A DNA stretch of 64,000 nt, from the NCBI RefSeq assembly GCF_003855255.1, contig NZ_CP034072.1, positions 1-64,000 on the forward strand. Direction: 5' to 3'. Numbering within the stretch: the first letter of the stretch is position 1; each line of letters starts with the position of its first letter. Position numbers and translations under genes: made by a program. This stretch comes from Mycolicibacterium nivoides (GTDB lineage Bacteria > Actinomycetota > Actinomycetes > Mycobacteriales > Mycobacteriaceae). Under the pieces are notes generated by a model. It saw only the letters and a list, made by a program, of their open reading frames with translations. It did not search any database and was not told where the DNA came from. This document shows positions 5,659-25,718 of this stretch, piece by piece.

Positions 5659-7338
5659 ATGACCGACACCACCCAGCAGGACGTTGTTGAGACCGCACAG
5701 TTCGGGACGCTCGAACACCTCGATCCCGCAACGCTGGAAATCGGTGAGAACGTCCGCGACGAGGCGACCCTCGACAAGTCGTTCCTGGCCAGCATCGCCG
5801 AGAACGGCGTCCTGACGCCGATCACCGCCGTTCGCAGCGCGAAGGATCCCAACGTGATCCGGGTCCGCAACGGCCAGATGCGTACCCTTGCGGCCCGCGA
5901 ACTCGGCCTGGCCAGCGTGCCGGTGTACGTCCTGCCATCCAGCGCAGCCGACGCCAGCGAAGAAACCATCGAGCGCATCGTGCACCAGATCGTCACCAAC
6001 GATAGGTTCCATGCCATCACCGAGGCCCAGCGCGCACGTGGCATCCAGCAGATGCTCAACGCCGGAGTTTCGCAGACCAAGGTCGCCAAGAAGCTGTCGG
6101 TGAAACGCGACACCGTCAAAGCTGCTGCCGCAGCGGCCAAGTCGAACGCCGCCATGAATGCACTCGACACCGGCCAGCTCAGCCTGGACGAAGCCGCCGC
6201 ACTCAGCGAGTTCGACGGCGACGACGACGCAATCGAAAAGCTCATCGCCGTTGCCGGGACCACCAGGTTCGCCTTGCGTGTCGAGGAGCTGCGCCAGGCC
6301 CGCGAGCGTGACCGCGCATATGCCGCCGCCGTGCAGGACTTCACCGAACGCGGCTACCGCGTGATCGAGCACGACGAAGCACCCGCATGGGACGACATCA
6401 CCTGCGTGGCAATCGAATACCTGCTCACCGCAGAGGGAGAGCGCCCCACCGACGCCGTTGTCACCGAGCCTGCGCACTGGGCGGTCATGCTTTACGAAGA
6501 GGACGGCTACGCCGACGCCGAAACCGGCGAGATCGTGGACGAGGACTCGATCGACTGGGCCACCCGGGACGACGATGAGGCCACCCCGGAAGAGGGCCTG
6601 CGGCACGTCAACAGCGTGGTGCAAACGACGTTCTACTCGCCCGACTGGTACTGCCTGGACTGCCAAGCGGCAGGCCTGCAGCTGGGCCACCAGGTCTCGG
6701 CACGCGCCGAGCGTGACACCACTGTTCAGGCCGAGGCTGACGTGACCGACGCTGACGCCCAGCAGGCCCGCGACGACGCCGCTGCCGCAGAGGCCGAGCG
6801 GGCAGCGACCTTGCGGCGTGAACGGCGCAAGGTCATCGCCCTCAACCGGATGGCCGAGGCCGCCGCGCCCGTTCGCCAGGAGTTCGTGACCAAGCTGCTG
6901 TCCCGCAAAACCCCTCCGAAGGGTGCGGCGATCTTCGTCGCAGATTGCCTGGTCCGCGATCCCGGTCTCATCAAGGAGTTCCACGGGGCGACGCAGGCGG
7001 CCAAGCTGCTCGGGGTGGATTCGACCGCTGCGGTTCGGAAGCTGGTCAGCGACCTAGCGCCGACCGCTGATGGCCGCGCCCAAGTCGTCACCCTCGGGCT
7101 GGTACTGGGTGCGCTGGAAGCCCGCACACCCAAGGACTCCTGGCGCTACGGCGGGTACGACGTGGTCAAGCCCATCGACTACCTGCGCTTCCTGGTCGCC
7201 AACTCCTACGAGCTGGCCCCGGTCGAACAGGTCATCGCCGGTGAGCGGACCGCCGACGAAGTGTACGACGACAGCCTGCAGGCCGACGAGTCCGGAACCG
7301 AGGACCAGGACGACGAACCCGGCGAGGACGCCGACTAG
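5659..7338 (+). CDS. ParB/KorB-like partition or plasmid regulatory protein
   Basis: A 559-aa protein with a ParB N-terminal domain at about residues 20-110 (ENVRDEATLDKSFLASIAENG, then RVRNGQMRTLAARELG in place of the usual GERR box). A central helix-turn-helix follows (AGVSQTKVAKKLSVKRDTVKA, about 135-155), then a long acidic C-terminal region with one CLDC motif near residue 330. It likely binds centromere-like sites and nucleotide for plasmid partition or gene control; no parA is adjacent. ATG 5659 has GAAAGG upstream. The replacement in the GERRxxA box is notable, because that box binds CTP in canonical ParB. Confidence 0.8.
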   Translation: MTDTTQQDVVETAQFGTLEHLDPATLEIGENVRDEATLDKSFLASIAENGVLTPITAVRSAKDPNVIRVRNGQMRTLAARELGLASVPVYVLPSSAADASEETIERIVHQIVTNDRFHAITEAQRARGIQQMLNAGVSQTKVAKKLSVKRDTVKAAAAAAKSNAAMNALDTGQLSLDEAAALSEFDGDDDAIEKLIAVAGTTRFALRVEELRQARERDRAYAAAVQDFTERGYRVIEHDEAPAWDDITCVAIEYLLTAEGERPTDAVVTEPAHWAVMLYEEDGYADAETGEIVDEDSIDWATRDDDEATPEEGLRHVNSVVQTTFYSPDWYCLDCQAAGLQLGHQVSARAERDTTVQAEADVTDADAQQARDDAAAAEAERAATLRRERRKVIALNRMAEAAAPVRQEFVTKLLSRKTPPKGAAIFVADCLVRDPGLIKEFHGATQAAKLLGVDSTAAVRKLVSDLAPTADGRAQVVTLGLVLGALEARTPKDSWRYGGYDVVKPIDYLRFLVANSYELAPVEQVIAGERTADEVYDDSLQADESGTEDQDDEPGEDAD

Positions 7339-7684
7339 TTGACCGGGTGGGCTGTGGAGGACACCAACCTCTGCAGCCCGCTCGGCTCGGCGAAATGGAA
7401 GCGCCTGCGGCGCTGCAGGATACGTCGTCTACGCCTTGCGGCGTAGGCCCACGAAGTGGTTTGCCTTCCGGCCTCCGATCGTAACCGGCGGGCCGGCCGC
7501 ACAAGGGCACCGCTTCGGCCTACGGCTCGGCACCGGCTTCAGCGGCTCGCTGCGCTCACCGGTGAAACCGGCCCCGCCGGGCCCTTGCTGCTTACCCGGC
7601 CCTGATGCCGGTTCTCGATCTCCTTGCCGGACAGGCAAACAGAACGGGCGGCCCCGAGTCGCCCCCTCACGAAAGGTTCTCACC
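7339..7684 (+). promoter_or_regulatory. Structured leader of the DUF932 gene
   Basis: A 346-bp leader built like that of the ParB-like gene. A long imperfect inverted repeat (CCGGCTTCAGCGG near 7533 against CACCGGTGAAACCGG near 7557) encloses a GGCTCGCTGCGCTC loop. Near the gene are two tandem hairpins, TTGCC-GGACA-GGCAA (7624-7638) and GGGCG-loop-CGCCC (7646-7664), joined by ACAGAAC, then GAAAGG and ATG. The first stem has one more base pair than the parB copy, a compensatory T-A extension, which argues that the RNA structure matters. Confidence 0.6.
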
Positions 7685-8725
7685 ATGGCTCACCAACTCG
7701 ATTCCACCCGTGGCCGCGTCAGCTTCGCCGACTCGCAGACCGACGCCTGGCACCAGCTCGGCCAGCAAGTCGGCCACCTCATGACCTCGCAGGAGGTTCT
7801 GGAGGCCGCCCACCTCGCCCGATGGAACGTGCGCAAGGTGCCGTTGCAGGTCGCCCAGGATCCCATCGTGACCTCAGACGGCAGTGTCATCACCCCGGAC
7901 CCGCTGGTCGTCCCCGACCACTACGCCACCGTGCGCGATAACCCCATCATCCCCGGGCAGATCGACGTACTGGGTGTCGTCGGCAGCAAGTATCAGCCCC
8001 TGCAGAACGAGGCCTCGTGCGACTTCCTGACCGCCCTCATCGATGAGAGCGGCGCAGTGTTTGAGACCGCCGGCGCCCTCAATGGCGGCCGCCAAACGTT
8101 CGTCACCTTGAAGTTGCCCGAAACCATGGTGTTCGACGGCAAAGACGGCTCGAAAGACCGCACCGACCTGTATATCGCCGCGCTGAACTCACACGACGGC
8201 AGCGCAGCGTTCCGCGGCATCGTGACCCCAGTCCGCGTGGTGTGCGCCAACACCCAGACCGCAGCGATTCGCGAAGCCAAAGCCAGTTTCGCGATCCGCC
8301 ACACCGGCAGCGCCCGCATCGCCATTCAGCAAGCCCGCGAGGCCCTGAGGCTGGCGTGGCGCTACCTCGACGTGTTCCAGGCCGAGGCCGCCCACCTCTA
8401 CACGACGCCGATGGACACCGACGAGGTCCACGCCTTCGCCAACCGCCTGGTCGACGTCGACGGCGCAACCAGCCTGGCAGCCAAGAACGCTCGCCGCGAA
8501 CAAGCCAGCGGCATCGTCAAACTGTGGGTGTCCTCCCCCACCGTCGCACCGATCGCTGGAACCCGCTGGGGCGCATACAACGCGGTCACCGAGTACGTCG
8601 ACCACCACGCCAAAGTCCGCGGCCGCGGCAACCCCGAAGCAGTCCGCGCGCTACGGGCGGTGACCCTGGGCAGTAGTGCCCAGACGCTCAAGTCCAATGC
8701 GTTCATGATGCTGCAAACCCTCTGA
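7685..8725 (+). CDS. DUF932 (phage/plasmid-like TIGR03299) protein
   Basis: A 346-aa protein matching the DUF932 phage/plasmid-like family by its pattern: a tail-like N-terminus DAWHQLGQQV, VVGSKYQPLQNEASCDFLTA, then FVTLKLPETM, NSHDGSAAFRGIVTPVRVVC and SFAIRHTGSARIAI. The biochemical role of the family is unknown. Members sit on plasmids and conjugative elements of actinobacteria near ParB-like and relaxase genes, as here. The upstream open frame is the structured leader; ATG 7685 with AAAGG is the start. Confidence 0.8.
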   Translation: MAHQLDSTRGRVSFADSQTDAWHQLGQQVGHLMTSQEVLEAAHLARWNVRKVPLQVAQDPIVTSDGSVITPDPLVVPDHYATVRDNPIIPGQIDVLGVVGSKYQPLQNEASCDFLTALIDESGAVFETAGALNGGRQTFVTLKLPETMVFDGKDGSKDRTDLYIAALNSHDGSAAFRGIVTPVRVVCANTQTAAIREAKASFAIRHTGSARIAIQQAREALRLAWRYLDVFQAEAAHLYTTPMDTDEVHAFANRLVDVDGATSLAAKNARREQASGIVKLWVSSPTVAPIAGTRWGAYNAVTEYVDHHAKVRGRGNPEAVRALRAVTLGSSAQTLKSNAFMMLQTL

Positions 8726-11680: not shown

Positions 11681-12054
11681 GGCCCGGCCGGCCCCGCTCG
11701 GGGTTGGCCGGGTCTTTTCGTGTTCCGGTGTGGTTGTGGTGGCGGCGCACTAGGTGCGACCGCCAGATAGCCCACCTACGGCGGGCTTTCGGGTTGGCAG
11801 CCTACTCACCTTCTTTTGCCTGTCAGCGTGTCTCAGTCTGACCGGCAGGGACCCGTCACGGTCAACCCACACGCGCGCTGGTGTCCGCCGGCCGAGTGAC
11901 CGTTTCGGCCCTATCAAGCTCGCTGCCGCTCGCGGGCCGAAACCCCGGCTCCCACCATCACGCGCTCTTCGGGGATTGACCGCGCCACCCTGCCGGTCCC
12001 CCTGATCCACACGCCAACCGGCGCAACCACTCCCGACCCGAACGGAGAAAAACC
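11681..12054 (+). repeat. Leader repeat L1 (type I)
   Basis: First of seven related leaders. In order it holds a terminator hairpin (GGCCCGGCC...GGCCGGGTC then TTTT), hairpin H2 (GGCGGCGCAC-TAG-GTGCGACCGCC), H3 (AGCCC-loop-GGGCT near 11777), H4 (GTTTCGGCCC 11902-11911 with GGGCCGAAAC 11934-11943, loop ending GCTGCCGCTCGC), a CCCCG/CGGGG stem, then GGAG and ATG. From about 11808 to 12066 it is nearly identical to L5 and L7, including the first codons of the gene. Confidence 0.85.
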
Positions 12055-12615
12055 ATGTCCAAAACCGAGATCACCGCGGCCGAGATGGGCCAGCCCACCG
12101 CCATCATCGCGAACTCCTTCATTCGCCTGCGCAGCACCCAGCGCGCCGACCTCACGGTCCACCACGCCCGTACCCGCAACGTCCGAGTCACTCTCGCCTG
12201 GGGTGGTGTCCTCATGACCTTCCTGAATGCCCAAGCAGCACAAGGTGTCCGCGAAGCCCTGTCGGCCGCACGCCCGACCATGGTGAACCTGCCCGTCGAC
12301 CTGGGCGCGCCCCAACCGACGGACGAAGACCCCTACGACCGGCCCACCATCGCGATCGACTGGACTCAACGCCCCACCTACGCCGTCATGCCGCGCGAGA
12401 GCCAACCGCAGCCCCACTACCGCATCGCCCGATGGACCGACGTCTACCTCGGGTCGCTCACCTTCCAGATCCTCGACCGCGCCGCGTTCGACTCCACCAT
12501 GGACATCCTCGAACTCGCGCACCACACCGCGATCGCCGTCTGCCTCGACGGCGAACAACACCGCGCAGACCCCACCACCGCCGGGTACCGAGCACTCGCC
12601 GACAACCCGCACTAG
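12055..12615 (+). CDS. Orphan protein downstream of L1
   Basis: A 186-aa soluble protein with no recognised domain. It begins MSKT, and those four codons belong to the shared leader repeat (also at 16795). A central stretch LTVHHARTRNVRVTLAWGGV looks like beta strands. Its composition is typical of the small cassette genes in this region. The stop is followed at once by a DnaA-box-like sequence. It is supported by leader, ribosome-binding site GGAG and steady third-position GC, not by homology. Confidence 0.6.
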   Translation: MSKTEITAAEMGQPTAIIANSFIRLRSTQRADLTVHHARTRNVRVTLAWGGVLMTFLNAQAAQGVREALSAARPTMVNLPVDLGAPQPTDEDPYDRPTIAIDWTQRPTYAVMPRESQPQPHYRIARWTDVYLGSLTFQILDRAAFDSTMDILELAHHTAIAVCLDGEQHRADPTTAGYRALADNPH

Positions 12616-12654
12616 TTATCCACAGGACACCCGCGAGGGTCGCAGTTGTCCACA
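12616..12654 (+). promoter_or_regulatory. Pair of DnaA boxes
   Basis: TTATCCACA (12616-12624, the canonical bacterial DnaA box) and TTGTCCACA (12646-12654, the mycobacterial form) lie in the same orientation. Their starts are 30 bp apart, about three helical turns. They occupy the 90-bp gap before the gene at 12706. They could mark a replication origin of the element or a DnaA-controlled promoter. Confidence 0.55.
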
Positions 12655-12705
12655 ACCGGACCTGCGGCCCTCGACGGGCCCGCGCAGAGGCGCGACGATA
12701 GCCCC

Positions 12706-12984
12706 ATGACGACCTGGACCCTGACCACCAGCGACGACACGAGCGAACGAGTAACCATCGGATCCGACGCCGATCCGCTTCGCGGCCGCCGCCAGCTCGT
12801 GGCCGCCGCCCAGAGCCAAATCCACCAGGGCGCAGCGGGAACACCCCGCTACGTCCTGCAGCAGGACGACGACCTCGTCGCCATCATCCAAACCGGCTAC
12901 ACCGACACCGGTTCACCCGATCACGCCGGCGCCGCCGAGATGCTGAACCATCTTGATCACCCGCGAAATCCATTCGAGTACTGA
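12706..12984 (+). CDS. Small orphan protein after the DnaA boxes
   Basis: A 92-aa soluble protein (MTTWTLTTSDDTSERVTIG...). The body has a predicted beta-alpha-beta character (YVLQQDDDLVAIIQTGY) and an acidic end. There is no long leader repeat upstream; instead the gene follows the two DnaA boxes. A terminator hairpin begins 12 bp after the stop. No family is recognised. Confidence 0.55.
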   Translation: MTTWTLTTSDDTSERVTIGSDADPLRGRRQLVAAAQSQIHQGAAGTPRYVLQQDDDLVAIIQTGYTDTGSPDHAGAAEMLNHLDHPRNPFEY

Positions 12985-12996
12985 GCAATCAAGCAC

Positions 12997-13395
12997 AGCC
13001 CAGCTGCCACCAGTTCACTGGCCGCTGGGCTTTTCTTTTGATCCGGCGGTAGGGGTGGTGCCGGCGCACTAAGTGCCGCCGGCAGATGGCCACCTACGGC
13101 GGCCCAAGTCCGTAGACACTCACCTTTATGCCTGTCAGCAGGTGCGCCCAGCGTAATCGTTGGGGCCCACCGCGGCTCAACCCACACCCGGGGCCGCACT
13201 ACGCAGGCCGAGTGACCCTTTCGGCCCAACGGGTGTGAATCCCCAAGGCGCTGCGCGCCGGCGATTCACCCCGGGCCGAAAGCCCTGCTGCGCCCCGGGC
13301 CCGGCCTCTTCGGAGTTGACCCACGGCACCCACCGATTCCGCCTGCACCTGTGCCAACCGGCACACACCGGCCACCGGAGCAGAACGGACACACC
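12997..13395 (+). repeat. Leader repeat L2 (divergent copy)
   Basis: It starts with a strong terminator, AGCCCAGC (12997-13004) with GCTGGGCT (13024-13031) and TTTTCTTTT. H2 reads GCCGGCGCAC-TAA-GTGCCGCCGGC and H3 GGCCACC-TAC-GGCGGCC. H4 is CTTTCGGCCC (13218-13227) with GGGCCGAAAG (13273-13282). The H4 closing pair is C-G where other copies have G-C, a compensatory flip. The H4 loop here is longer and carries its own hairpin (GGGTGTGAATC against GATTCACCCC). Confidence 0.8.
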
Positions 13396-13686
13396 ATGAC
13401 CATCAACAGCACCACCGCGGCGATCAGCGTGCAGCGCCCCACCATCCGGATGCGTCACATGAGCATGACGTGCGGCGGCGGCTTCGCCGACCGCCCCACC
13501 GAGACCACGTTCAGCGACGTCGACGGCGCGAACAACGTCCTCATCGCTCTCTCCAAGGAAAACGACCACGCCATGGGCGGAGTCATTCTCGAGCCTGACC
13601 TGTTCAGCCCTGTCACCGGCGCTTTCCACGTCGTCATCTACTGGGGCGCCACCTCCGACCGCTACCACCTCGACACCATCGACTAG
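13396..13686 (+). CDS. Orphan protein downstream of L2
   Basis: A 96-aa soluble protein of unknown function, with alternating strand-like segments (FSDVDGANNVLIALSKEND, FHVVIYWGATSDRYHLD). ATG 13396 follows the L2 leader and an AACGGA-type ribosome-binding site. A hairpin at 13703-13736 follows the stop. It reads as an independent monocistronic cassette. Confidence 0.55.
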   Translation: MTINSTTAAISVQRPTIRMRHMSMTCGGGFADRPTETTFSDVDGANNVLIALSKENDHAMGGVILEPDLFSPVTGAFHVVIYWGATSDRYHLDTID

Positions 13687-13702
13687 CGCCCTGACACCGC
13701 CC

Positions 13703-13736
13703 GTGCCCGGCCAGCCACCAGCAGCTGGCGGGGCAC
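13703..13736 (+). terminator. Hairpin between the 13396 and 13774 genes
   Basis: GTGCCCGGCCAGC (13703-13715) pairs with GCTGGCGGGGCAC (13724-13736) with one mismatch and an 8-nt loop. It has no T-run, so it may act as a terminator or as a partial attenuator before the next start. Confidence 0.45.
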
Positions 13737-13773
13737 AACCATCTCGACCACTGTCCCGAAGGGAACAAGACCG

Positions 13774-14124
13774 ATGACGCTCTACCTGCATCCGCACCCA
13801 GACGACTTCTGGGAACCACGCATCAAACACCCTCAGCCAGTCGACTGCATCAAACCCAAAGCCAAGGTCGACATCCGCGACGGCGTCAAATGGATCACCT
13901 ACCACGACGACCTGGGCCACGGCCGGCGCAAGAAACCAGTGATCGTCGAGATGCCCCAAGACGCGGCCACCAAGTCATGCCACGAAGGCCGCCACCACCA
14001 ATGCAACCACCGCCGCGGAGCTCGCCATGAAGGCGGCGTATTCCTGTCGGTGCGGCCGATGTTCAGATGGCGATGCGGCTGCCTGTGTCACAACCACCCC
14101 GAGCGAATCGGCCTGCTGTTCTGA
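13774..14124 (+). CDS. Small Cys/His-rich protein, possible zinc binder
   Basis: A 116-aa protein whose C-terminal half is rich in metal ligands: CHEGRHHQCNHRRGARHEGG and then RWRCGCLCHNH. Three or four Cys plus several His over 45 residues suggest a zinc-ribbon-like fold. The N-terminal half is basic and hydrophilic (KPKAKVDIRDGVKWITYHDD). The ribosome-binding site GAAGGGA precedes ATG 13774. No family is recognised. Confidence 0.6.
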   Translation: MTLYLHPHPDDFWEPRIKHPQPVDCIKPKAKVDIRDGVKWITYHDDLGHGRRKKPVIVEMPQDAATKSCHEGRHHQCNHRRGARHEGGVFLSVRPMFRWRCGCLCHNHPERIGLLF

Positions 14125-14139
14125 CCATCTCGAATCCGG

Positions 14140-14524
14140 GCCCGGCCAGGTTCTCCCCGTGGGAGCTTGGTCGGGCTTTCTTTTTGATCCGGCGGTTGTG
14201 GTGGTGGCGGCGCACGCGGTGCGGCCGTCAGATAGCCCACCTACGGCGGGCTTTCGGGTTGGCAGCCCACTCACCTTTTTAGCCGTCAGCAGGGGCGCCA
14301 AGCGTAATCGGGCCGGGGCCCGTCGAGGTCAACCCACGCCCGAGCTGGTGTCCGCCGGCCGGGTGACCGTTTCGGCCCTATCAAGCTCGCTGCCGCTCGC
14401 GGGCCGAAACCCCGGCTCCCACCACCCCGAGCTCTTCGGGGTTGACATCGCCACCCAGCCGATTGACCGCACCCCCAGCGCTGACCGGCGCAACCAGTCA
14501 CCACACCAAACGGAAGGACCAACC
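14140..14524 (+). repeat. Leader repeat L3 (type II)
   Basis: It begins with terminator GCCCGGCCAGG...CTTGGTCGGGC followed by TTTCTTTTT (14140-14185), then H2 (14206-14228), H3 AGCCCACC...GGCGGGCT (14234-14252), and H4 GTTTCGGCCC (14369-14378) with GGGCCGAAAC (14401-14410). A CCCCGAGCTCTTCGGGG hairpin and a 3' block containing CCCCAGCGCTGACCGGCGCA follow. L3 and L6 are near-identical over roughly 300 bp although their genes are unrelated. Confidence 0.85.
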
Positions 14525-14797
14525 ATGACCGCACAGATCACCGACCCCTGGGCCACCACCGACCACGACCCCATCAGCATCGTTGCCTCCGCCACCGCAG
14601 CCACCCTTGAAGAGGCCCGCTCCGACATCCACGCCGCCAACGCTGCGATCGACGATCCCCACCGGCGCAACCAGTACGCCCTCTCCGCACGAGACAACGC
14701 CGTCACCGTGCTCCTGGCTGGCGACGCCAATCCCGACGAGCTCCGCCACGCCGAGCACTACCTGGCCGATGCAGAAGCGATCATCGCCAACCCCTGA
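14525..14797 (+). CDS. Small helical orphan protein downstream of L3
   Basis: A 90-aa acidic, almost entirely helical protein (ATLEEARSDIHAANAAIDD, then ELRHAEHYLADAEAIIANP). ATG 14525 has GGAAGGA before it. The frame is open far upstream through the leader, but that part is repeat sequence and not conserved as protein. No family is recognised; two-helix proteins of this type often act through protein-protein contacts. Confidence 0.55.
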   Translation: MTAQITDPWATTDHDPISIVASATAATLEEARSDIHAANAAIDDPHRRNQYALSARDNAVTVLLAGDANPDELRHAEHYLADAEAIIANP

Positions 14798-14803
14798 ACC
14801 CAC

Positions 14804-14848
14804 GGTGCCCCGGGGTCGTGCCGAGCAATCCGCGGCCCCGGGCGCACC
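14804..14848 (+). terminator. Hairpin between the 14525 and 14893 genes
   Basis: GGTGCCCCGGGG (14804-14815) pairs with CCCCGGGCGCACC (14836-14848) with one bulge and a 20-nt loop, starting 7 bp after the upstream stop. It has no T-run. Confidence 0.4.
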
Positions 14849-14892
14849 ACCAAACCCACACCAGCACAGCCATTACCACGAAGGAGATCATC

Positions 14893-15246
14893 GTGTGCTA
14901 CTACACCACCACCATTTGCAAAGACGGAGACCACCACCAGGTCGTCACCCACTGGGACGACCACGACCCCAACCGATTCATCTACGCACCAGTGACCGTC
15001 ACCGGCGAGATGACCGAACAGAAACTCGCAGACACGGTCGCATCCCAGGGCTTTCGGATCGTCTCCAACGGATCCGACAACATCGGCCGCGGATGGGCCA
15101 TCGTCAAACGGCCTGATCACCGCTTCTACGACCCGATCAGCGGCGACTGGTACTCCTTCCTGAGCAACGAACAGAAAGACGCCATCACCGCCAAGTACCC
15201 CGACGCCGACGTGCCCGGTACCCACAACCGCCACCCAGCGCCGTAA
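14893..15246 (+). CDS. Orphan protein of unknown function
   Basis: A 117-aa soluble protein starting at GTG 14893, with an excellent AAGGAG upstream (MCYYTTTICKDGDHHQVVTH...). Two N-terminal cysteines, a conserved-looking aromatic stretch (RFYDPISGDWYSFLSNEQ) and mixed strands and helices suggest a compact domain. It shares a promoter region with the 14525 gene because only a hairpin, not a full leader, separates them. Confidence 0.6.
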   Translation: MCYYTTTICKDGDHHQVVTHWDDHDPNRFIYAPVTVTGEMTEQKLADTVASQGFRIVSNGSDNIGRGWAIVKRPDHRFYDPISGDWYSFLSNEQKDAITAKYPDADVPGTHNRHPAP

Positions 15247-15263
15247 CCACGACAATCCCGCGA

Positions 15264-15643
15264 GCCCGGCCGGACCCTCACCCCGAGGTGCCCGGTCGGG
15301 CTTTCTTTTGATCCGGCGGTTGGGGTGGTGCCGGCGCACGAGGTGCGACCGCCAGATAGCCCACCTACGGCGGGCTTTCGAGTTGGCAGCCCACTCACCT
15401 ACTTGCCGTCAGCAGGGGCGCGCAGCCTAATCGGCCGGGGGCCCGACCTGTCAACCCACGCCCGTGGCCGGCGCCGGCGGCGGAGGACATTTGCGGCCCA
15501 ACCGTGCTCGCTGCCGCTCGCGGGCCACAAATCCGCCGGCGCCACCCGCGGACTCTTCGGGGTTGACAGCCCACCCTCACCCGATTGACCGCACCCCCAG
15601 CGCTGACCGGCGCAGCCAATCACTACACAGAACGGACAACACC
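15264..15643 (+). repeat. Leader repeat L4 (divergent copy)
   Basis: It begins with terminator GCCCGGCCGG...CCCGGTCGGGC then TTTCTTTT. H3 is AGCCCACC-TAC-GGCGGGCT. H4 has drifted to ATTTGCGGCCC (15489-15499) with GGGCCACAAAT (15522-15532): the outer part of the stem has changed on both arms together, while the loop GTGCTCGCTGCCGCTCGC is kept. A GACTCTTCGGGGTTGACA block and the CCCCCAGCGCTGACCGGCGCA block follow before ATG. Confidence 0.8.
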
Positions 15644-16084
15644 ATGGACCACGAATTCGACCTCGCATTCGCACTTCTCGAAGAGGCCGCCGACCGAATC
15701 GGCCACCAGCAGTACGGAATCACCCGCATCCTCTTCCACGACTACGGGCCAATCCTGCTCACCACCGTCCACAACTACACCCGCGAAACCGGACACCACC
15801 TCGTCCTACTCGCCGCCGACGACTACGGACAAATGGTCGCCATCGAGGCCACCGCGCCCGACCTCGACACCGACCCGGTAACCCGGATCGTCCACGTCCG
15901 GGCCGGCGAATACACCTTCCACGCCGTAGACACCTGGAGCTTCCGCGCCACCGTTGAAGGCCACACCTACACCCTCACCGCCCAGCCCGGAACCGACACC
16001 TGGACCCTCACCGCCGACATCGCCCAGCCCACCGCGCACCACGACATCGACGAGGCCCTCACCGAGCTGCTCCACGCTGCATAA
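15644..16084 (+). CDS. Orphan protein downstream of L4
   Basis: A 146-aa protein, mainly beta strands (ILLTTVHNYTRETGHHLVLL, TVEGHTYTLTAQPGTDTW), flanked by N- and C-terminal helices. It has no signal peptide or enzyme motif. The start is ATG 15644 after the L4 leader with AACGGA. The strand-rich middle could be a small barrel, but no family is recognised. Confidence 0.6.
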   Translation: MDHEFDLAFALLEEAADRIGHQQYGITRILFHDYGPILLTTVHNYTRETGHHLVLLAADDYGQMVAIEATAPDLDTDPVTRIVHVRAGEYTFHAVDTWSFRATVEGHTYTLTAQPGTDTWTLTADIAQPTAHHDIDEALTELLHAA

Positions 16085-16092
16085 CCCACAAG

Positions 16093-16126
16093 GGGCCGGG
16101 CCGCCGTACACACGGTGGCCCGGCCC
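16093..16126 (+). terminator. Strong hairpin after the 15644 gene
   Basis: GGGCCGGGCCGCCGT (16093-16107) pairs with ACGGTGGCCCGGCCC (16112-16126), 15 pairs with a single G-T wobble and a 4-nt loop, 8 bp after the stop. It has no T-run. Confidence 0.55.
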
Positions 16127-16158
16127 ACCTCAACACACCGCCATCGGGAGGAAAGCCC

Positions 16159-16413
16159 ATGCTCCGCTACATCACTCGCACCGTCACTCGCACCGAGACC
16201 CGTCTGAACCCGCAACTCGACGGACTCACCGGCACCGAGTACCGCCGGATGTGCCGCTACCTCAGCTCGATCGGTGAGCTCCTTGTGACCCGCGAAATTG
16301 TTGAGGAGCTCCCCCCGAAGTACGCCTTCGACGAGCGCGGGGAACTGGTCTGGGTCAACCTCACCGGAGACGACATCCGAGCCGAGATCAACACGCTCAC
16401 TCCCCGGTCCTAA
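16159..16413 (+). CDS. Small orphan protein
   Basis: An 84-aa basic-to-acidic protein (MLRYITRTVTRTETRLNPQL..., ending INTLTPRS) with a central helical segment (TGTEYRRMCRYLSSIGELLVT). GGAGG lies 8 bp before ATG 16159. Only the hairpin at 16093 separates it from the upstream gene, so the two may share a message. No family is recognised. Confidence 0.55.
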   Translation: MLRYITRTVTRTETRLNPQLDGLTGTEYRRMCRYLSSIGELLVTREIVEELPPKYAFDERGELVWVNLTGDDIRAEINTLTPRS

Positions 16414-16423
16414 CAGTTCGCCT

Positions 16424-16794
16424 GGCCCGGCCGGCCCTGCTCGGGGTTGGCCGGGTCTTTTCGTGTTCCGGTGTGTGGGTGGTGGCGGCGCACTAGGTGC
16501 GGCCGCTGTGGCCACCTGCGGTGGCCATCGGGGTTGGGTGCCCGCTCACCTTTATTTGCCTGTCAGCGTTTCTCAGTCTGACCGGCAGGGACCCGTCACG
16601 GTCAACCCACACGCGCGCTGGTGTCCGCCGGCCGAGTGACCGTTTCGGCCCTATCAAGCTCGCTGCCGCTCGCGGGCCGAAACCCCGGCTCCCACCATCA
16701 CGCGCTCTTCGGGGATTGACCGCGCCACCCTGCCGGTCCCCCTGATCCACACGCCAACCGGCGCAACCACTCCCGACCCGAACGGAGAAAAACC
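16424..16794 (+). repeat. Leader repeat L5 (type I)
   Basis: It has terminator GGCCCGGCC...GGCCGGGTC then TTTT, and H2 GGCGGCGCAC-TAG-GTGCGGCCGC. H3 is GGCCACC-TGC-GGTGGCC, perfectly paired but with bases different from L1, so both arms changed. H4 is GTTTCGGCCC (16642-16651) with GGGCCGAAAC (16674-16683). From about 16560 to 16806 it matches L1 with one visible difference, and the identity continues through the first four codons of the gene. Confidence 0.85.
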
Positions 16795-17052
16795 ATGTCC
16801 AAAACCATCGTCGAAACCGACACCCAGACGTGGCACGTCGCCGGTGCCCATACCTGCGATGTCCTGCGCTGCCACCACGACGCCGACATCATCGCCGACA
16901 CCGTCGAGCACGAACGGTTCTGCGTCGACCACACCGACCTCGCCGCACTCATTCCCCAGCATCACCCGCACTTCGGCGGCTGGTACCGCATCACCGCCAG
17001 CAGCGCACCCATCCCCGGGCACGGCGTCATCTTCACCGTCCACCCGCTCTGA
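16795..17052 (+). CDS. Small Cys/His-containing orphan protein downstream of L5
   Basis: An 85-aa protein (MSKTIVETDTQTWHVAGAHT...). CDVLRCHHDADI and ERFCVDH together give three Cys and several His in a C-x4-CHH...C-x2-H arrangement that could bind a metal. The first four codons are identical to those of the 12055 gene because the leader repeat extends into the coding sequence; the rest is unrelated. No family is recognised. Confidence 0.55.
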   Translation: MSKTIVETDTQTWHVAGAHTCDVLRCHHDADIIADTVEHERFCVDHTDLAALIPQHHPHFGGWYRITASSAPIPGHGVIFTVHPL

Positions 17053-17097
17053 ACACCCCAACTCGCCGAACACCAAACCTCAAGAAAGGCAACACCA

Positions 17098-17406
17098 ATG
17101 GACATCGACTTCGCCCTCGCATGGAACTTCACCGAGACCCGCGACTACGACCGCCCGCGCCAGCTGCGGTTCCGCCACGACGACCAGCCCCCCGCCTCCG
17201 GTGCTATCACCGGTCAACTCGTCGCCGTCATCGCCGCCGCCACACGGGCCGACCACGGCGACACCCTGCCCATCAGCCGCCCCGACGTCTCCTACGACGA
17301 CATCGCCGCAGCCCTCGACGGCTGGCAGCACTGGGCACGGCGCAGCGACAACACCATCGACCTCGACCTCATCCGCCAGCGCATCCACACCGCCGGCCTC
17401 GACTAA
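17098..17406 (+). CDS. Small orphan protein
   Basis: A 102-aa acidic protein (MDIDFALAWNFTETRDYDRP...). A helical second half (YDDIAAALDGWQHWARRSDN, then IDLDLIRQRIHTAGLD) resembles a small regulatory or protein-contact domain. AAGAAAGG precedes ATG 17098, 45 bp after the upstream stop, so it is probably co-transcribed with the 16795 gene. A strong hairpin follows the stop. Confidence 0.55.
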   Translation: MDIDFALAWNFTETRDYDRPRQLRFRHDDQPPASGAITGQLVAVIAAATRADHGDTLPISRPDVSYDDIAAALDGWQHWARRSDNTIDLDLIRQRIHTAGLD

Positions 17407-17415
17407 CCACCCACC

Positions 17416-17449
17416 GGGCCCGCGCCGACCCCAACCCCGGCGCGGGCCC
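17416..17449 (+). terminator. Strong hairpin after the 17098 gene
   Basis: GGGCCCGCGCCG (17416-17427) pairs perfectly with CGGCGCGGGCCC (17438-17449) around a 10-nt loop, starting 9 bp after the stop. It has no T-run. Confidence 0.55.
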
Positions 17450-17472
17450 ACCACACCGAACGGAGAAAGCCC

Positions 17473-17721
17473 ATGTCCGCAACCGAACGCCAGCTCGCCA
17501 TCACAACCCACCAGATGGCCCTCGACGAAGCCCTCGACAACGCGCTCACCGCGCTCTACCGAGCCGCTCGCTCCATCACAGTGCTCACCCACAAGACCAT
17601 CAACGACAGCGCCTACGTCGAAGGACCTCAGGGCGCTGACGTCGCCAGCTTCATCAACGACAGCCTGCGCAACGTCCGCGCCGCCTACGCGATCGCACAC
17701 CCCATCCGCGAAAACATCTAG
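17473..17721 (+). CDS. Small helical protein, paralogue of the 9547 gene
   Basis: An 82-aa helical protein whose second half (DSAYVEGPQGADVASFINDS, then RAAYAIAHPIREN) aligns without gaps to the protein encoded at 9547. The shared D(S/F)xVEGxxGxDVAxF core is the only recurring protein motif among the cassette genes. GGAGAAAG precedes ATG 17473. The L6 terminator starts 8 bp after the stop. Confidence 0.7.
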   Translation: MSATERQLAITTHQMALDEALDNALTALYRAARSITVLTHKTINDSAYVEGPQGADVASFINDSLRNVRAAYAIAHPIRENI

Positions 17722-17728
17722 CCATCGA

Positions 17729-18101
17729 GCCCGGCCAGGTTCTCCCCGTGGGAGCTTGGTCGGGCTTTCTTTTTGATCCGGCGGTTGTGGTGGTGGCGGC
17801 GCACGAGGTGCGGCCGTCAGATAGCCCACCTACGGCGGGCTTTCGGGTTGGCAGCCCACTCACCTTTTTAGCCGTCAGCAGGGGCGCCAAGCGTAATCGG
17901 GCCGGGGCCCGTCGAGGTCAACCCACGCCCGAGCTGGTGTCCGCCGGCCGGGTGACCGTTTCGGCCCTATCAAGCTCGCTGCCGCTCGCGGGCCGAAACC
18001 CCGGCTCCCACCACCCGGACTCTTCGGGGTTGACATCGCCACCCAGCCGATTGACCGCACCCCCAGCGCTGACCAGCAGCGCACAACCGAAAGGGGAGAC
18101 C
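17729..18101 (+). repeat. Leader repeat L6 (type II)
   Basis: Terminator GCCCGGCCAGG...CTTGGTCGGGC with TTTCTTTTT, then H2 GGCGGCGCAC-GAG-GTGCGGCCGTC, H3 AGCCCACC...GGCGGGCT, and H4 GTTTCGGCCC (17958-17967) with GGGCCGAAAC (17990-17999). It matches L3 almost base for base through the CCCCCAGCGCTGACC block. It then diverges about 30 bp before the start codon, where each gene has its own ribosome-binding site. Confidence 0.85.
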
Positions 18102-18422
18102 ATGTCCATCAACGCCGCCACCGGCCGTGCCCGCCACCTGGGCGCTGCCCGAAACCTCGTGCACCGCAAGTCAGACGGCACGGTCGTCGACTTTTTCGGC
18201 CAGGCCGACCTGTACTTGCTCACCCCCGCGCTACGCGGATACACCACCGTGGTCGTATCCAGCACCGACCGCAGCGGACAACAAACCGACTTCGGTCCCG
18301 AAACCCTCATCTTCGGACTGGAAGGCGAAGGTCTGCTCTACGACGCCGACGACGTCGGCGGAGGACCCGGCATCCTCACCGCCACCGCGGCACTTGAGGG
18401 CGCCGGTTACACGATCGACTAG
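18102..18422 (+). CDS. Orphan protein downstream of L6
   Basis: A 106-aa protein of mixed strands (TTVVVSSTDRSGQQTDFGPE, TLIFGLEGEGLLYDADDVGG) with a basic N-terminus (GRARHLGAARNLVHRKSDG). AAGGGGAGA precedes ATG 18102. No family is recognised. A perfect hairpin (18437-18465) follows the stop by 14 bp. Confidence 0.55.
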   Translation: MSINAATGRARHLGAARNLVHRKSDGTVVDFFGQADLYLLTPALRGYTTVVVSSTDRSGQQTDFGPETLIFGLEGEGLLYDADDVGGGPGILTATAALEGAGYTID

Positions 18423-18436
18423 CCGCCCGTGAGCAC

Positions 18437-18465
18437 GCCCCGCCAGCTCCCACAGCCGGCGGGGC
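18437..18465 (+). terminator. Hairpin after the 18102 gene
   Basis: GCCCCGCC (18437-18444) pairs perfectly with GGCGGGGC (18458-18465) around a 13-nt loop. A second hairpin, CGACCC (18491-18496) with GGGTCG (18504-18509), opens the L7 leader. Neither has a clean T-run. Confidence 0.5.
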
Positions 18466-18486
18466 AGCTCGCCCTGCCGGCACACG

Positions 18487-18852
18487 CGGCCGACCCAGCA
18501 CCGGGGTCGACCGGGCCACTTTCGTCTTCCGGCGTGGTGGTGGCGGCGCACTAGGTGCGCCCGCTGTGGCCACCTCCGGTGGCCATCGGGGTTGGGTGCC
18601 CGCTCACCTTTATTTGCCTGTCAGCGTGTCTCAGTCTGACCGGCCGGGACCCGTCACGGTCAACCCACACGCGCGCTGGTGTCCGCCGGCCGAGTGACCG
18701 TTTCGGCCCTATCAAGCTCGCTGCCGCTCGCGGGCCGAAACCCCGGCTCCCACCATCACGCGCTCTTCGGGGATTGACCGCGCCACCCTGCCGGTCCCCC
18801 TGATCCACACGCCAACCGGCGCAACCACTCCCGACCCGAACGGAGAAAAACC
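18487..18852 (+). repeat. Leader repeat L7 (type I)
   Basis: A degenerate terminator region, then H2 GGCGGCGCAC-TAG-GTGCGCCCGCT. H3 is GGCCACC-TCC-GGTGGCC, perfectly paired. H4 is GTTTCGGCCC (18700-18709) with GGGCCGAAAC (18732-18741). From about 18610 to 18855 it matches L1 and L5 almost exactly. The type I leaders thus precede three unrelated proteins (186, 85 and 185 aa). Confidence 0.85.
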
Positions 18853-19410
18853 ATGTCGCACACCTACCGGCTCGCCGCCCAACTCCAAGCACTCGCGATC
18901 GACAACGTCGAACTCCGAGTCTTCGGAACCCACCGCATCGCCAGCCCCCAGGCCGGCCTCATCGCCACCGCCCGCCATCGACTGCACGACGGCCAGCACG
19001 ACGTCCTCATCGTCGCCCGAGACGACGCCACTCACGTGCTCGCATCCGCCGTCGCCTCCACCCCGATCGACGGCGGCGTCATCGACTCCCACATCTCGCA
19101 GTTCCGCAGTGCCGGACTGCTCTGGACCCGGGCCATCACGCCACCCGCGCACTGGTGGCAGCGCAGCACCGCAAACCCTGCCCAACCCGAGGCAGCGCCG
19201 CGCAACCGCATCGGATTCACCGCCGCGGGGACCGCCGAGTACTTCCTCAACCACGACTGGCTCGCCGGCCGCGATCCTCACAACACGCAATGGTCGCTGA
19301 GCTCCTGGACGCCCGCACGCGGGCTGCACGTCCTACTCGCCAACGTCGACATCGACGCCGCCACACGGCACGCCATCACCGTCGAGACCCAGGCGGCAAG
19401 TGTTGCTTGA
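18853..19410 (+). CDS. Orphan protein downstream of L7
   Basis: A 185-aa soluble protein with an N-terminal strand-rich part (TARHRLHDGQHDVLIVARDD, ATHVLASAVASTPIDGG) and a Trp-rich C-terminal part (AHWWQRSTAN, NTQWSLSSWTPARG). It is the last of the plus-strand cassette genes. A hairpin of CCGGGCCCG with CGGGCCCGG lies 18 bp after the stop, and the next genes face it. No family is recognised. Confidence 0.6.
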   Translation: MSHTYRLAAQLQALAIDNVELRVFGTHRIASPQAGLIATARHRLHDGQHDVLIVARDDATHVLASAVASTPIDGGVIDSHISQFRSAGLLWTRAITPPAHWWQRSTANPAQPEAAPRNRIGFTAAGTAEYFLNHDWLAGRDPHNTQWSLSSWTPARGLHVLLANVDIDAATRHAITVETQAASVA

Positions 19411-20719: not shown

Positions 20720-20960
20720 GCCGCCCACCATCCCCCCGACTTACCCCTTATGCCGCACCCAAACTCAACTTCCTTCCTCCGCCCTCCATCGCTCCCATCG
20801 CCTCCGCCCGTCCCCAGCCGCACCAGCCCTGCCGCACTTCCCAACAACCTCCACCCCACTACCGCACATCACACCTCTTGCATTCAGGTCACAAATTGGT
20901 AACGGCTGTCGTATAACTCCCCGACCGGCCTTTGGCTCAGACCCGGGTGATGACGCAGTG
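20720..20960 (+). other. C-rich, G-poor intergenic region, candidate oriT
   Basis: The gap between the divergent HTH and relaxase genes. Counted directly, positions 20761-20880 contain 65 C but only 12 G on the plus strand, a much stronger strand skew than anywhere else seen here. The right part (20890-20920) turns A/T-rich and contains TATAAC at 20912, a possible -10 element. Origins of transfer usually lie next to the relaxase gene and are often strand-skewed. No nick-site consensus was recognised. Confidence 0.4.
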
Positions 20961-23900
20961 ATGGGCTTGCACAAATTAAGCGCGGGCGACGGGTACATGT
21001 ACCTGATTCGCCAGGTCGCTGCGTCCGACGACACCCACCGCGGCAAATCGAGCCTGGCCGACTACTACAGCGAAAAAGGCGAAACCCCCGGCCGCTGGAT
21101 GGGCAGCGGCCTGCCCGGTCTCGGTGAGCCCGCAGGCCGCGACGCCACCGATCCGATGGTCGCCGAGCTGTGGTCGGTCCCCGAAGGATCCGAGGTCACC
21201 GAGGACCAGATGAAGGCCCTCTTCGGCGAAGGCCTGCACCCCAACGCCGACCGAATCACCGGGCGGCTCACCGGATTCGGACTCGGACACAACGGTGCCA
21301 TCGCCGCCGCCCGACTAGGCCGGCCGTTCCGCGTCAACAAGACCGACAACGAATGGATGCGCCGCCTTCGGGAGGGCTACGCCGACTTCAACGCCACCCT
21401 CGGCCGCGACCGTCAAGCCTCCCTCGAACCCGACCAACGTGCCCGCATCAAAACAGCGGTCGCCCGCGAAATGTTCGCCGACCAGTACGGTCGCCCACCG
21501 GCCGACGAGCGAGAACTGACCGGCTTCATCGCCCGCAAATCCCGCGCCCAAACCCAAGCCGTCGCCGGTTACGACCTCACGTTCACCCCGGTCAAGTCAG
21601 TATCGGTGCTGTGGGCTGTGGCGCCCCGGGAAATCTCGGAAACCATCCTCGCCGCGCACCACCAAGCCGTCGCCGACGCCCTCGCATTCCTGGAAGAACA
21701 CGCAGCGTTTTCCCGCATGGGAGCCAACGGAATAGCCCAGGTCGACACCACCGGATTCATCGCCGCCGCGTTCGATCACCGAGACTCTCGCGCCGGAGAT
21801 CCCAACCTGCACACCCACGTCGCGATCAGCAACAAGGTGCGGGTCATCGGGGCCGACGGAATTCCGCGCTGGCTGGCCCTGGACGGCGACCCCCTGCACA
21901 AGGCCGCAGTCGCCGCCTCAGAGCTCTACAACACCCGACTCGAGGCCCACCTCATGGCCGCACTCGGTGTGCAGTTCGCCGAAACCCGCGCCAAGAACGA
22001 CAAACGGCCGGTGCGCGAAATCGACGGAATCCCGGTCGAACTCATCGAGCGCTGGTCAGCCCGCCGCGCCGCGATCGAGCACCGTGTCGCAGACCTGGCG
22101 AAGGCCTTCCAAGTCGAGCACGGCCGTGAGCCCAGCGCCGTGGAAATGCTCGCGCTGTCCCAACAGGCCACCCTCGACACCCGGCAGGCAAAACACGAGC
22201 CGCGCAGCCTTGGCGAGCAGCGGCAGACGTGGCGAACCGAGGCCATCGAACTCATCGGCAGCCACCGCAAACTGGCTCGGCTGATCACCGACGTCACCCA
22301 CCGCGCGCGACCCCGCCGCCAGCCCGCCATCACCTCCGAATGGGTTGCCGAACAAGCCGAAGCAGTCATCGACCGGGTCTCACACGACCGGGCCGAATGG
22401 GGCATCAACCATGTCCGGGCCGAGGCTCAGCGGGTACTGCGGGGCACCGACCGCCACGGCCATCCCGAGACCCTCAAGCGGATCGTCAACCATGCTCTTG
22501 GCGCCTGCAGCATCACCATCACCACCCACGCCGACACCGAGATGAACGAGCCCACGGTGCTGCGCCGCCGCGATGGCGTCTCGGTCTATACCCGCCACGA
22601 TTCGACCCGCTACACCAGCGAAGCCATCCGGGCCGCCGAACGCCGCATCCTGGCAGCGGCCGAACAGTGTGGCGGCCGTGTCGCAGACGACACCAGCATC
22701 GGTTTGGCGATGCTCGAACAGCACGCCCAAAGCGGCTTGCAGCTCAACGAAGCCCAGCAAGCATTGGTGCGCGGCATGGCCACGTCCGGGGCCCGGCTCC
22801 AACTGGCACTTGCCCCCGCCGGCACCGGAAAAACCACCGCCATGTCCGTTCTCGCTGCCGCGTGGATCAACAGCGGCGGCAACGTCATCGGCCTGGCGCC
22901 AACCGCGGCGGCTGCCGAAGTCTTGGCCGAAGACGCCCACATCACCACCGACACCATGGCCAAATTCGTTCAACTTGCCGCCCCCACCGATCACCCCGTA
23001 GCGGCCAACGACCCGGCACTCAAGTGGTTCAACACCATCGGTCCCGACACCCTGTTAATCGTCGACGAAGCGGGTATGGCCTCCACCTTCGACCTCGACG
23101 AAATGATCACCCACGCGCTCGCACGAGGTGCCAGCGTGCGCCTCGTCGGCGACGATCAACAGCTGGCGTCGATCTCAGCCGGCGGCGTCATCACCGACCT
23201 GTCCACCCGCCCCGAAACCCTCACGCTCTCCACAGTGGTGCGCTTCCGCGACCCCGCCCAGAGCGCGGCCAGCTTGGCCATCCGCGACGGCGATCCCGCC
23301 GGCATCGCCTACTACATCGACCACGGCCGCGTTCACGTCGGAGCCGACCAAACAGCCGCCGACATGGCCTACCAAGCGTGGGCCGACGACATCAAAGCCG
23401 GACACCGCAGCGTCCTGTTGGCGCCCACCAACGATCTGGTCGCCGAACTCAACGAACGCGCCCGACTCGACCGGTTGCGCAATGCCAACGCCAAGACCTC
23501 ACGGACCGTCACGCTGGCCGACGGGCTGACCGCATCGGCCGGGGACTGGATCATTACCCGCAAGAACGCACGCTGGCTGCGACTGCCCAACGGCGCCTGG
23601 ATCAAGAACGGCCACCGCTACGAAATTCGCTCCGTACACCGCGACGGATCGATCACCGTCGCGCGCCTGGGCGCCGATCAGCGGGCCAAGACGATACGGC
23701 TTCCCGCCGACTACGTCACGGCCAACACCACCCTCGGCTACGCATCCACCATCAACGCCGCCCAGGGCCTCACCGCAGGCACCCAGAAGATCAAAGGCAC
23801 CTGCCATATCGTCGCCACCGATCACCTGACCCGCCAGCAGCTCTACGTCGCCGGCACCCGAGCCCGCGACGAAAACCACTTCTATTTCTCGACATCCGAA

Positions 23901-25718
23901 GCTGACCCGCACCGCATCCTCGCGCCCAAAGCCACCCACCCCCCGACCGCCGTCGACATCCTCTCGACGATCCTTCGCCGCGACGGCCGCCAGGTCTCGG
24001 CCACCACCGCAGCGCAAGCCGAACTCGACCCGTTCGGCCGGCTCCACGGCGCGGCAAGCATGTATGCCGACGCCCTCACCGCGGCCGCCGAAGTTCTCGC
24101 CGGGCCGGCCACCATGGCCCGCATCGACCAGGCCGCCACCGCCATCGTCGGTGACATCACCGACGCTGAAGCCTGGCCCGTCCTGCGGCGCAACCTAGCC
24201 CTGCTCGCCCTCGACGGACACGACCCCGTCGCCGCACTGCAGCACGCAGCGGCCAAGCCGCTAGGTGATACCGCCGACGTCGCCGCAGTGCTCGACTGGC
24301 GCCTGCCCACCCCCGAAGGCTCCGCAGCCGCCAATGTCGGACCGCTGCGCTGGCTGCCGGCCATCCCGACTGCCGTCCAACACAACCCGCAATGGGCCGA
24401 ATACCTCGGCGGCCGAGCGCGACTCGTGACCGAACTGGCCGACCAAATCCGCGATACCGCACGCGAGTGGACCCCGGCCACCACGCCGTCCTGGGCGCGG
24501 CCACTGCTCAACGGACAACCCCAGTTAATGGCCGAAATCGCCGTGTTCCGCGCCGCCCACGATGTCGATCCCGCCGACACGCGCATCACCGGCCGCGAGC
24601 AACACGCGAACCGCTCCGCAGCCTTCCAGAAACTTCTGCACAGCCGCGTCGACACCGCGATCCTGCACAGCCAAGACAGCGTCGCACGCTGGCGCACCAT
24701 GGCCGCGATGCTCAACCCGCACATTCCCAACGACCCCTACTGGCCGCGGCTGGCCGCCCACATCGACGACGCGGCCCGGGCCGGCGCCGACGTCGCGGGA
24801 ATGCTCGCCTCCGCGATGGCCGCCCACGGTCCGCTACCCGACGAACTGCCCGCAGCGGCCCTGTGGTGGCGACTGTCAGGCACCCTGGCCCCGCCGACAC
24901 TGGAACGCGCCAACCCCCGCCTGCGTCCTGACTGGACCCCAGAACTGCACCATCTACTCGGCTCCGAGCTCGCCGAAACCGTCATCGCAGACCCAGCGTG
25001 GCCCGGGCTCATCGCCGCCGTCACCGCATCCGGCTGGCCGCCGGCAGACCTGCTGGCAGCGGCCAGTGAACATCTGCGCGAGATCGCCGAAACCGAAGGC
25101 GGCCTCCGCCCCGACGAATACGCCCGTCTGCTCACCACCCGCATCGAACTGCTCATGCACGCGGCGACGGTCGACACCGACATTCCGCATCCCGCCGAAT
25201 GGGCAACCTCCGCTGCCAGCAGCCAGCTCGATCTGCTCGCCGAGCCGTCCCCCGAAGAAGCCGCCTACGCCGACCAGGACGCGCCCCCGGATCCCGCCGA
25301 CTTCTTTGTGCTGGATCGGTCGTTGCGGCCGGTGCCGGTGGGTGTGGTGGGTGAGTTGTATGTGGTCGGTGCTGGGTTGGGGTGTGGTTATTGGCGTCGT
25401 GGCGGGTTGACCTCGACGCGGTTTGTGGCGTGTCCGTTCGGTGGGAACGGTGCGCGGATGTATCGGACTGGGGATCTGGCTTCGTGGGGTTCTGATGGGC
25501 AGTTGCATTACCTCGGTCGTGCTGATGAGCAGGTCAAGATCCGTGGCTACCGGATCGAGCTGGGCGAGATCCAAACAGCTCTGGCTGAGGTTGACGGAGT
25601 GCAGCAAGCCGCGGTGATCGCGCGGGAGGACCGCCCTGGACGGGTTGAGCTGGTCGTATCGGGCTTTGAGCGATCATCTGGACGGGCCGATCATCGGGAT
25701 CAACCAAGTCCCACGTGA
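20961..25718 (+). CDS. MobF-type conjugative relaxase/helicase, 3' end replaced by NRPS sequence
   Basis: The relaxase part is residues 1-1447 (to 25301). It has catalytic Tyr candidates Y35-Y36 in [16 protein letters not shown], the metal-binding three-His motif [15 protein letters not shown] (H273, H284, H286), and [14 protein letters not shown] RecD/TraI-like helicase follows: Walker [11 protein letters not shown] (about 617-626), Walker [10 protein letters not shown], and a C-terminal motif [12 protein letters not shown]. It would nick oriT, stay covalently attached to the strand and unwind the DNA. After APPDPAD the frame continues into an NRPS adenylation domain (FFVLDRSL...) to a stop at 25718, so the native C-terminus is lost. 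Whether the chimera is active is unknown. Confidence 0.9.
25302..25640 (+). pseudogene. NRPS adenylation-domain C-terminal half (motifs A6-A8)
   Basis: In frame with the relaxase are [19 protein letters not shown] (A6), MYRTGDL (A7) and [19 protein letters not shown] (A8), ending near AREDRPG. Motifs A1-A5, the A10 lysine region and the carrier domain are absent. Codon use is visibly different from the relaxase, with many G/T third positions (GTGTTG, GGTTGGGGTGTG). The missing N-terminal half of such a domain is at 32002-33099. Non-functional alone. Confidence 0.85.

Follow-up and report, generated by a model that had tools for sequence, protein, structure and literature searches.

Seven folded repeats before small genes in Mycolicibacterium nivoides as probable single-stranded-DNA promoters of a mycobacterial leading region

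Introduction

Promoters that form in single-stranded DNA have been described from enterobacteria. In plasmid F, Frpo is a single long stem that bears the -10 and -35 boxes and is required for early expression, according to the available part of that report (PMC9849209), and the ParB-type, SSB, PsiB and DUF932 genes of F point to the origin of transfer (oriT). Here we describe a 64,000-nucleotide stretch of Mycolicibacterium nivoides (positions 1 to 64,000 of contig NZ_CP034072.1; hereafter 'the window'), in which seven related blocks, L1 to L7, precede small genes. Each block is probably a promoter that forms in single-stranded DNA, of the Frpo/ssi type, and the blocks would be spread along the leading region of an element derived from a MOBF plasmid.

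A Frpo survey of the plasmid database PLSDB used known and candidate Frpo sequences, and the portion of its text at hand contains no word starting with mycobacteri or actinobacteri (PMC12826799). The accessible sections of three papers on mycobacterial plasmids mention neither leading region nor promoter (PMC8190616, PMC12803027 and PMC11877719). In the open-licence literature, among the matches listed, no title on single-stranded-DNA promoters in mycobacteria or other actinobacteria was found. The EGeRS of pLS20-family Bacillus plasmids resemble the present blocks in being long repeats upstream of establishment operons on Gram-positive plasmids; in the excerpted text, their authors judged single-stranded-DNA promoters to be highly unlikely in those plasmids, as it is the non-template strand that is nicked (PMC8708921).

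Results

The preliminary description of this DNA had reported seven related blocks, each between an upstream gene and the start codon of a small gene, and all seven were confirmed. Each contains a core of ~210 nt that forms one long imperfect rod; the blocks, their rod cores and the elements discussed below are as follows (the right-arm motifs of L3, L4 and L6 were read off the sequence).

11681..12054, minus strand, block L1: rod core 11816-12024; -10 CAGACT (complement of AGTCTG) 11835-11840; left-arm -35 (complement of GGTCAA) 11860-11865; right-arm TTGACC 11976-11981
12997..13395, minus strand, block L2: rod core 13131-13364; -10 TACGCT 13150-13155; left-arm -35 TTGAGC 13175-13180; right-arm TTGACC 13316-13321
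14140..14524, minus strand, block L3: rod core 14282-14491; -10 TACGCT 14301-14306; left-arm -35 TTGACC 14327-14332; right-arm TTGACA 14442-14447
15264..15643, minus strand, block L4: rod core 15405-15613; -10 TAGGCT 15424-15429; left-arm -35 TTGACA 15449-15454; right-arm TTGACA 15563-15568
16424..16794, minus strand, block L5: rod core 16556-16764; -10 CAGACT 16575-16580; left-arm -35 16600-16605; right-arm TTGACC 16716-16721
17729..18101, minus strand, block L6: rod core 17871-18079; -10 TACGCT 17890-17895; left-arm -35 17916-17921; right-arm TTGACA 18030-18035
18487..18852, minus strand, block L7: rod core 18614-18822; -10 CAGACT 18633-18638; left-arm -35 18658-18663; right-arm TTGACC 18774-18779

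Since L1, L5 and L7 resemble one another to 90-99%, and L3 resembles L6 to 98%, most of the variation within the window comes from L2 and L4. A search of the whole 6.9-Mb genome returned only these seven blocks and one 30-base match. To cover the relatives, 49 blocks from the window and five plasmid stretches were reduced to 43 distinct cores, of which 40 (three being too long) were used in a covariance model, R1, of 222 positions. Applied to the window and 54 fetched stretches, the model gave 239 matches, including two low-scoring ones that read rods of one stretch (L013) in reverse. The 150 best of the 239 formed alignment A3, which holds 128 distinct rods after removal of 22 identical rows; A3 omits 89 matches, and the outlying genera are therefore absent from the wobble test described below.

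Compensatory base changes, also claimed in the preliminary description, were borne out in this larger alignment, with 35 of the 73 consensus pairs changing on both sides. The covariation score of A3 was 0.157, compared with 0.053 in shuffles, of which none of 500 came as high, and no more than 0.049 with slid arms. In four of five measures the 73 pairs were far above the shuffled and slid controls; the fifth, further pair types, was not above chance (65 versus 61.1; reached by 67 of 500 shuffles). These tests carry the caveat that the structure was derived from the same sequences and that the shuffles ignore relatedness. In predicted folds of the A3 rods the putative transferred strand is a long imperfect stem-loop, with the -35 helix present in 125 of 128. 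Judged by eye, most of 15 inspected rods from other genera fold as the same kind of rod with TTGAC and NANNNT; the best fold of one of the other-genus rods, L108, does not give a rod with these elements.

Two of the arm pairs that had been offered as changing together, H3 GGCCACC/GGCGGCC and H4 ATTTGCGGCCC/GGGCCACAAAT, proved to have plus-strand A·C or C·A mismatches, which are G·T wobbles on the minus strand. Across 63 conserved pairs in the 128 distinct rods, plus-strand A·C (that is, minus-strand G·T) occupied 397 cells versus 12 for G·T, with another 255 cells holding other mismatches. Counted as events on a tree, 104 A·C and 14 G·T changes fell in pairs, whereas unpaired columns, at 71 and 110, respectively, showed no such excess (Fisher test, 4.9e-18, the copies not being independent). 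The 63 pairs had been picked from plus-strand RNA folds, a choice that would favour the opposite outcome; with pairs taken from minus-strand DNA folds the counts were 430 A·C versus 19 G·T. The bias persisted as A·C:G·T ratios of 196:6, 129:3, 73:2 and 24:4 after thinning to below 95, 90, 85 and 80% identity (64, 39, 23 and 11 sequences), respectively. RNase P RNA from the same genus, treated by the same procedure (27 of 30 loci, three being too short), gave the reverse, with 11 A·C versus 117 G·T. Moreover, the DNA folding energy was lower for the minus strand in all 128 rods but in none of the 27 RNase P loci. Selection on the rod structure acts on the minus strand.

The blocks had originally been read as plus-strand RNA leaders. 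A leader or riboswitch would suit both the real covariation and the place of the blocks between terminator and start codon, yet G·U tolerance on the strand that would be mRNA is lacking (the 12 G·T versus 397 A·C cells above) where RNase P has many such pairs, and the plus strand folds worse as DNA. Rfam returned no match at gathering and nothing credible at E<=5, which agrees with the earlier statement that no known leader or riboswitch class is recognizable; the best candidate, DUF1874 RNA, was rejected at 23.3 bits on the minus strand against a cut-off of 42. An RNA leader is thus exceedingly improbable, and it is countered further by the promoter elements, the position and the candidate oriT polarity set out below, which point to a promoter formed by a transferred single DNA strand.

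The promoter elements were located on the 3' arm of the putative transferred strand. From the apex outwards, a near-invariant, paired TTGAC is followed at a spacer of 18-20 by NANNNT in 97 of the 102 distinct arms (this count leaves out 46 of the 240 hits, which lacked the -35 pattern), while spacers of 15-17, 21 and 22 combined yielded only 5 occurrences among the distinct non-template arms. The first base of this -10 is T, C or G, mostly giving TANNNT or CANNNT; its -11 A and -7 T are invariant in all 128 A3 rods, and the -11 base has a mean unpaired probability of 0.88 in the predicted folds. Among the 95 distinct gene-sense arms, the right-arm TTGAC is followed at a spacer of 12-24 by NANNNT only 3 times and by TANNNT never, so that folding of the single strand would be required for a complete promoter. 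A scan of the duplex for sigma-70-type promoters came up empty for both strands, a result of little weight because shuffles give only 0.5. The start codon lies beyond the rod in 207 of 211 cases (205 ATG), at a median of 30 nt, and a Shine-Dalgarno-like stretch by a lenient pattern precedes 99% of start codons. The polarity of the elements would thus carry RNA polymerase off the base of the rod into the downstream gene. Beside the -35, on the template arm, lies a near-invariant and mostly unpaired CTCT[TA]CG bulge (A3 columns 215-222), which hints at a dedicated recognition factor.

A terminator scan flagged the following sites in the window.

11681..11714, plus strand, terminator-like hairpin with a T run at the start of L1
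14138-14178, plus strand, terminator-like site at L3
16424-16457, plus strand, terminator-like site at L5
17727-17767, plus strand, terminator-like site at L6

Because strong plus-strand terminator-like sites stand at the start of four of the seven blocks, those units at least need a promoter of their own; the scan flagged no such site at L2, L4 or L7. Between terminator and rod lies a second conserved hairpin domain, the H2/H3 region (11738-11830 in L1, likewise in the other blocks). Its wobble bias is weak (112 A·C versus 53 G·T with 168 of 215 sequences kept; tree events, 49 versus 26, and in loops 427 versus 360), and it is possibly a priming or protein-binding site.

The surroundings of the array are listed next.

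5410..7338, plus strand, ParB_N-like protein (17.5 bits, below the Pfam cut-off of 26.3)
7436..8725, plus strand, DUF932 protein (E 1.6e-58), of a kind that the leading region of F also encodes
10630-11304, trypsin-like peptidase gene, inside the putative leading region
19606-20142 and 20258-20731, minus strand, pair of genes that separate the array from the relaxase
20860..20905, minus strand, candidate oriT core: hairpin GTTAC-N6-GTGAC (20903-20888), then GAGGTGT^GATGTG
20961..25718, plus strand, MOBF (TrwC) relaxase-helicase, whose 3' end enters what we take, from its sequence, to be a tail like that of nonribosomal peptide synthetases

The order in the window is thus ParB-like, DUF932 and NrdH genes, then the rods with their small genes, the two minus-strand genes and the MOBF relaxase, and a similar order of rods and of ParB-type, DUF932 and NrdH genes is seen in five plasmid stretches. 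A related MOBF relaxase was present in 25 of 55 stretches, and every one of the 125 rods in these lies upstream of, and co-directional with, the relaxase; the remaining 115 of 240 rods are in stretches in which no relaxase was found. In the outlying genera, 6 of 12 genomes have a TrwC relaxase, and on the three contigs that hold both relaxase and rods each of the six model matches lies upstream of the relaxase and points the same way.

At 15 of the 25 loci, those with the closest relaxases, the DNA preceding the relaxase gene was aligned. A common core is present at all 15: on its minus strand the hairpin GTTAC/GTGAC (G·T variants included) is followed in most cases by AGGTGTGATG. The nick-region site of F, GCAAAAACTTGTTTTTGCGTGGGGTGTGGTGC, also lies on the minus strand, with the genes on the plus strand. 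By analogy with F, and with positions counted by hand, the nick in the window would fall between 20871 and 20870 of the minus strand. Given the F-like polarity of this oriT-like core, the minus strand would be the transferred one, with the array entering first as the leading region; as spacing and hairpin differ from F, the oriT stays a candidate only. Of the two intervening genes, that at 19606-20142 has relatives in 157 plasmid records, mostly actinobacterial among the matches listed, and its product may be a relaxosome or oriT-linked protein. Genes for HSP90 and NuoG follow the relaxase frame.

Each rod in the window is followed by a small gene.

12055..12615, plus strand, small gene after L1 (186 aa, no Pfam family)
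13396..13686, plus strand, small gene after L2 (96 aa, no Pfam family)
14525..14797, plus strand, small gene after L3 (90 aa, no Pfam family), of a family that follows rods in 20 stretches
15644..16084, plus strand, small acidic gene after L4 (146 aa), of the commonest family behind rods (37 of 221 downstream proteins)
16795..17052, plus strand, small gene after L5 (85 aa, no Pfam family)
18102..18422, plus strand, small gene after L6 (106 aa, no Pfam family)
18853..19410, plus strand, small gene after L7 (185 aa, no Pfam family)

The 221 downstream proteins, near-identical copies included, fall into 31 families with a median isoelectric point of 5.2, and few of them have Pfam names (DUF4192, DUF932 and DUF7280). 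For the family of the L4 gene, a confident structural model (pLDDT 91) combines helix and beta-sheet and had no match at E<=0.001 in the PDB or among viral models. The small genes presumably help establishment, and they may have an anti-defence role, by extension from a survey of leading regions (PMC11541004).

By BLAST, the block occurs at 231 places in 39 plasmid records (Mycobacterium, 30; Mycolicibacterium, 8; Mycobacteroides, 1), of which 33 are typed mobilizable, while the phage records and viral contigs searched gave no match. Within the genus, 47 of 297 genomes have matches to model R1; within the family, 18 of 301 do, and 12 of these 18 belong to other genera and score weakly, at 34-51 bits. 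An exact 24-base pattern was found in 62 named stretches from Mycobacterium, Mycolicibacterium, Rhodococcus, Rhodococcoides, Williamsia, Gordonia and some metagenome-assembled genomes. Among these 62 the rod pattern also appears in L209, a 4-kb contig labelled Mesorhizobium, and in L173 and L216, from one contig labelled Kitasatospora; both are likely contamination or mislabelling.

Discussion

If the candidate oriT is right, the rods share several features with Frpo1 and Frpo2 of plasmid F and with ssi of ColIb-P9: all are non-coding repeats of a leading region for which the transferred strand is template, all form one long imperfect stem-loop in whose stem -35 and -10 are rebuilt, and their genes point to oriT with ParB-type and DUF932 neighbours. 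They differ in length (~210 nt versus ~330 for Frpo), in their GC-rich actinobacterial hosts and in their number, which reaches 12 copies per fetched stretch; furthermore, unlike F, the five mycobacterial plasmid stretches have no gene annotated as SSB. Homology to Frpo was not detected, as model R1 had no match in 12 Frpo stretches at E<=1 and BLAST of the block gave none in E. coli genomes. From EGeRS the rods differ in that the candidate nicked strand here is the template strand.

As a mechanism, we propose that the transferred (minus) strand would enter the recipient single-stranded and that each core would fold into its ~210-nt imperfect rod. The 5' arm of the rod would run on into the gene as template, while the 3' arm would serve as non-template strand and provide the -10 NANNNT. 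With the TTGAC of the -35 kept as duplex nearer the apex, RNA polymerase, were it to recognize the rod, would point down it, off its base and onto the single-stranded gene. Once the complementary strand is made, the duplex gene-sense strand would offer a -35 but almost never a -10, so that the promoter would be incomplete and silent and expression transient.

Several observations weigh against such a promoter. With looser picking of arms, 94 of 112 fit the element pattern (31 of 240 hits not scored). The -10 segment is partly open in the predicted folds (mean unpaired probability 0.40 versus 0.28 overall), and the non-template spacer is long, at 19-20 nt, with 16-17 for the template arm alone (by eye); the usual promoter spacer is 17. 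The folding energy of L3, the one rod so compared, is modestly better than that of shuffles (z of -2.25 for the minus and -1.85 for the plus strand). A pattern built from the 15 oriT-like cores occurs at those 15 and at no other locus of the set, the other 10 relaxase loci included, and the element in the window looks integrated and truncated beside chromosomal genes. Finally, Frpo itself, in a control of 12 close sequences of low divergence (one of 13, the partial L158, was left out), shows no wobble bias, with 20 A·C and 16 G·T, and a minus-strand RNA is expected to give a bias as strong as the one observed; the wobble test alone therefore cannot tell single-stranded DNA from minus-strand RNA.

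The chief rival is accordingly a structured RNA made from the minus strand, either an antisense RNA or a 6S-like decoy of RNA polymerase. The wobble bias of the rods is as strong as in true RNA and absent, in that small test, from the one proven single-stranded-DNA promoter compared, and the left arm alone bears TTGAC-19/20-NANNNT on the minus strand. Such an RNA would leave unexplained why the rod keeps a fixed distance of ~30 nt from a plus-strand start codon, why it stands where it does and in one direction relative to the relaxase, and why the -35/-10 polarity serves the downstream gene; moreover, the four strong terminators that open blocks belong to the plus strand, whose minus-strand counterparts are short. 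We consider this RNA unlikely.

Folded single-stranded DNA could also have another chief function, either priming of complementary-strand synthesis (ssi) or cassette recombination in the manner of integron attC. The latter is a folded single DNA strand found in arrays of small orphan genes, and the rods resemble it in both respects: their folded strand would be the transferred strand, and their many copies lie between small orphan genes. Priming has a parallel in Frpo, which reportedly primes too, to go by the title of a 1997 article by Masai and Arai. A recombination site would not be expected to show a -35/-10 signature, a fixed place before start codons or strict orientation, all of which the mycobacterial rods have, and priming may coexist with promoter function. 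That priming or recombination takes the place of a promoter is very unlikely.

Under the preferred reading as promoters of the entering strand, we lean, by a modest degree, towards the broader view that actinobacteria, independently of enterobacteria, evolved single-stranded-DNA promoters whose -10 lies solely on the far arm of the folded strand, with the arrays forming an entry-only regulon of the leading region that carries some 30 protein families, mostly unknown, for establishment or anti-defence. The strand-of-wobble comparison is in itself a simple means to ask on which strand a conserved structure is selected. If the promoter reading is true, it would explain how mycobacterial plasmids could turn on early genes upon entry, the 222-position model would be a marker for leading regions and for the polarity of transfer, and about 30 gene families would be flagged as possible anti-defence or establishment factors.

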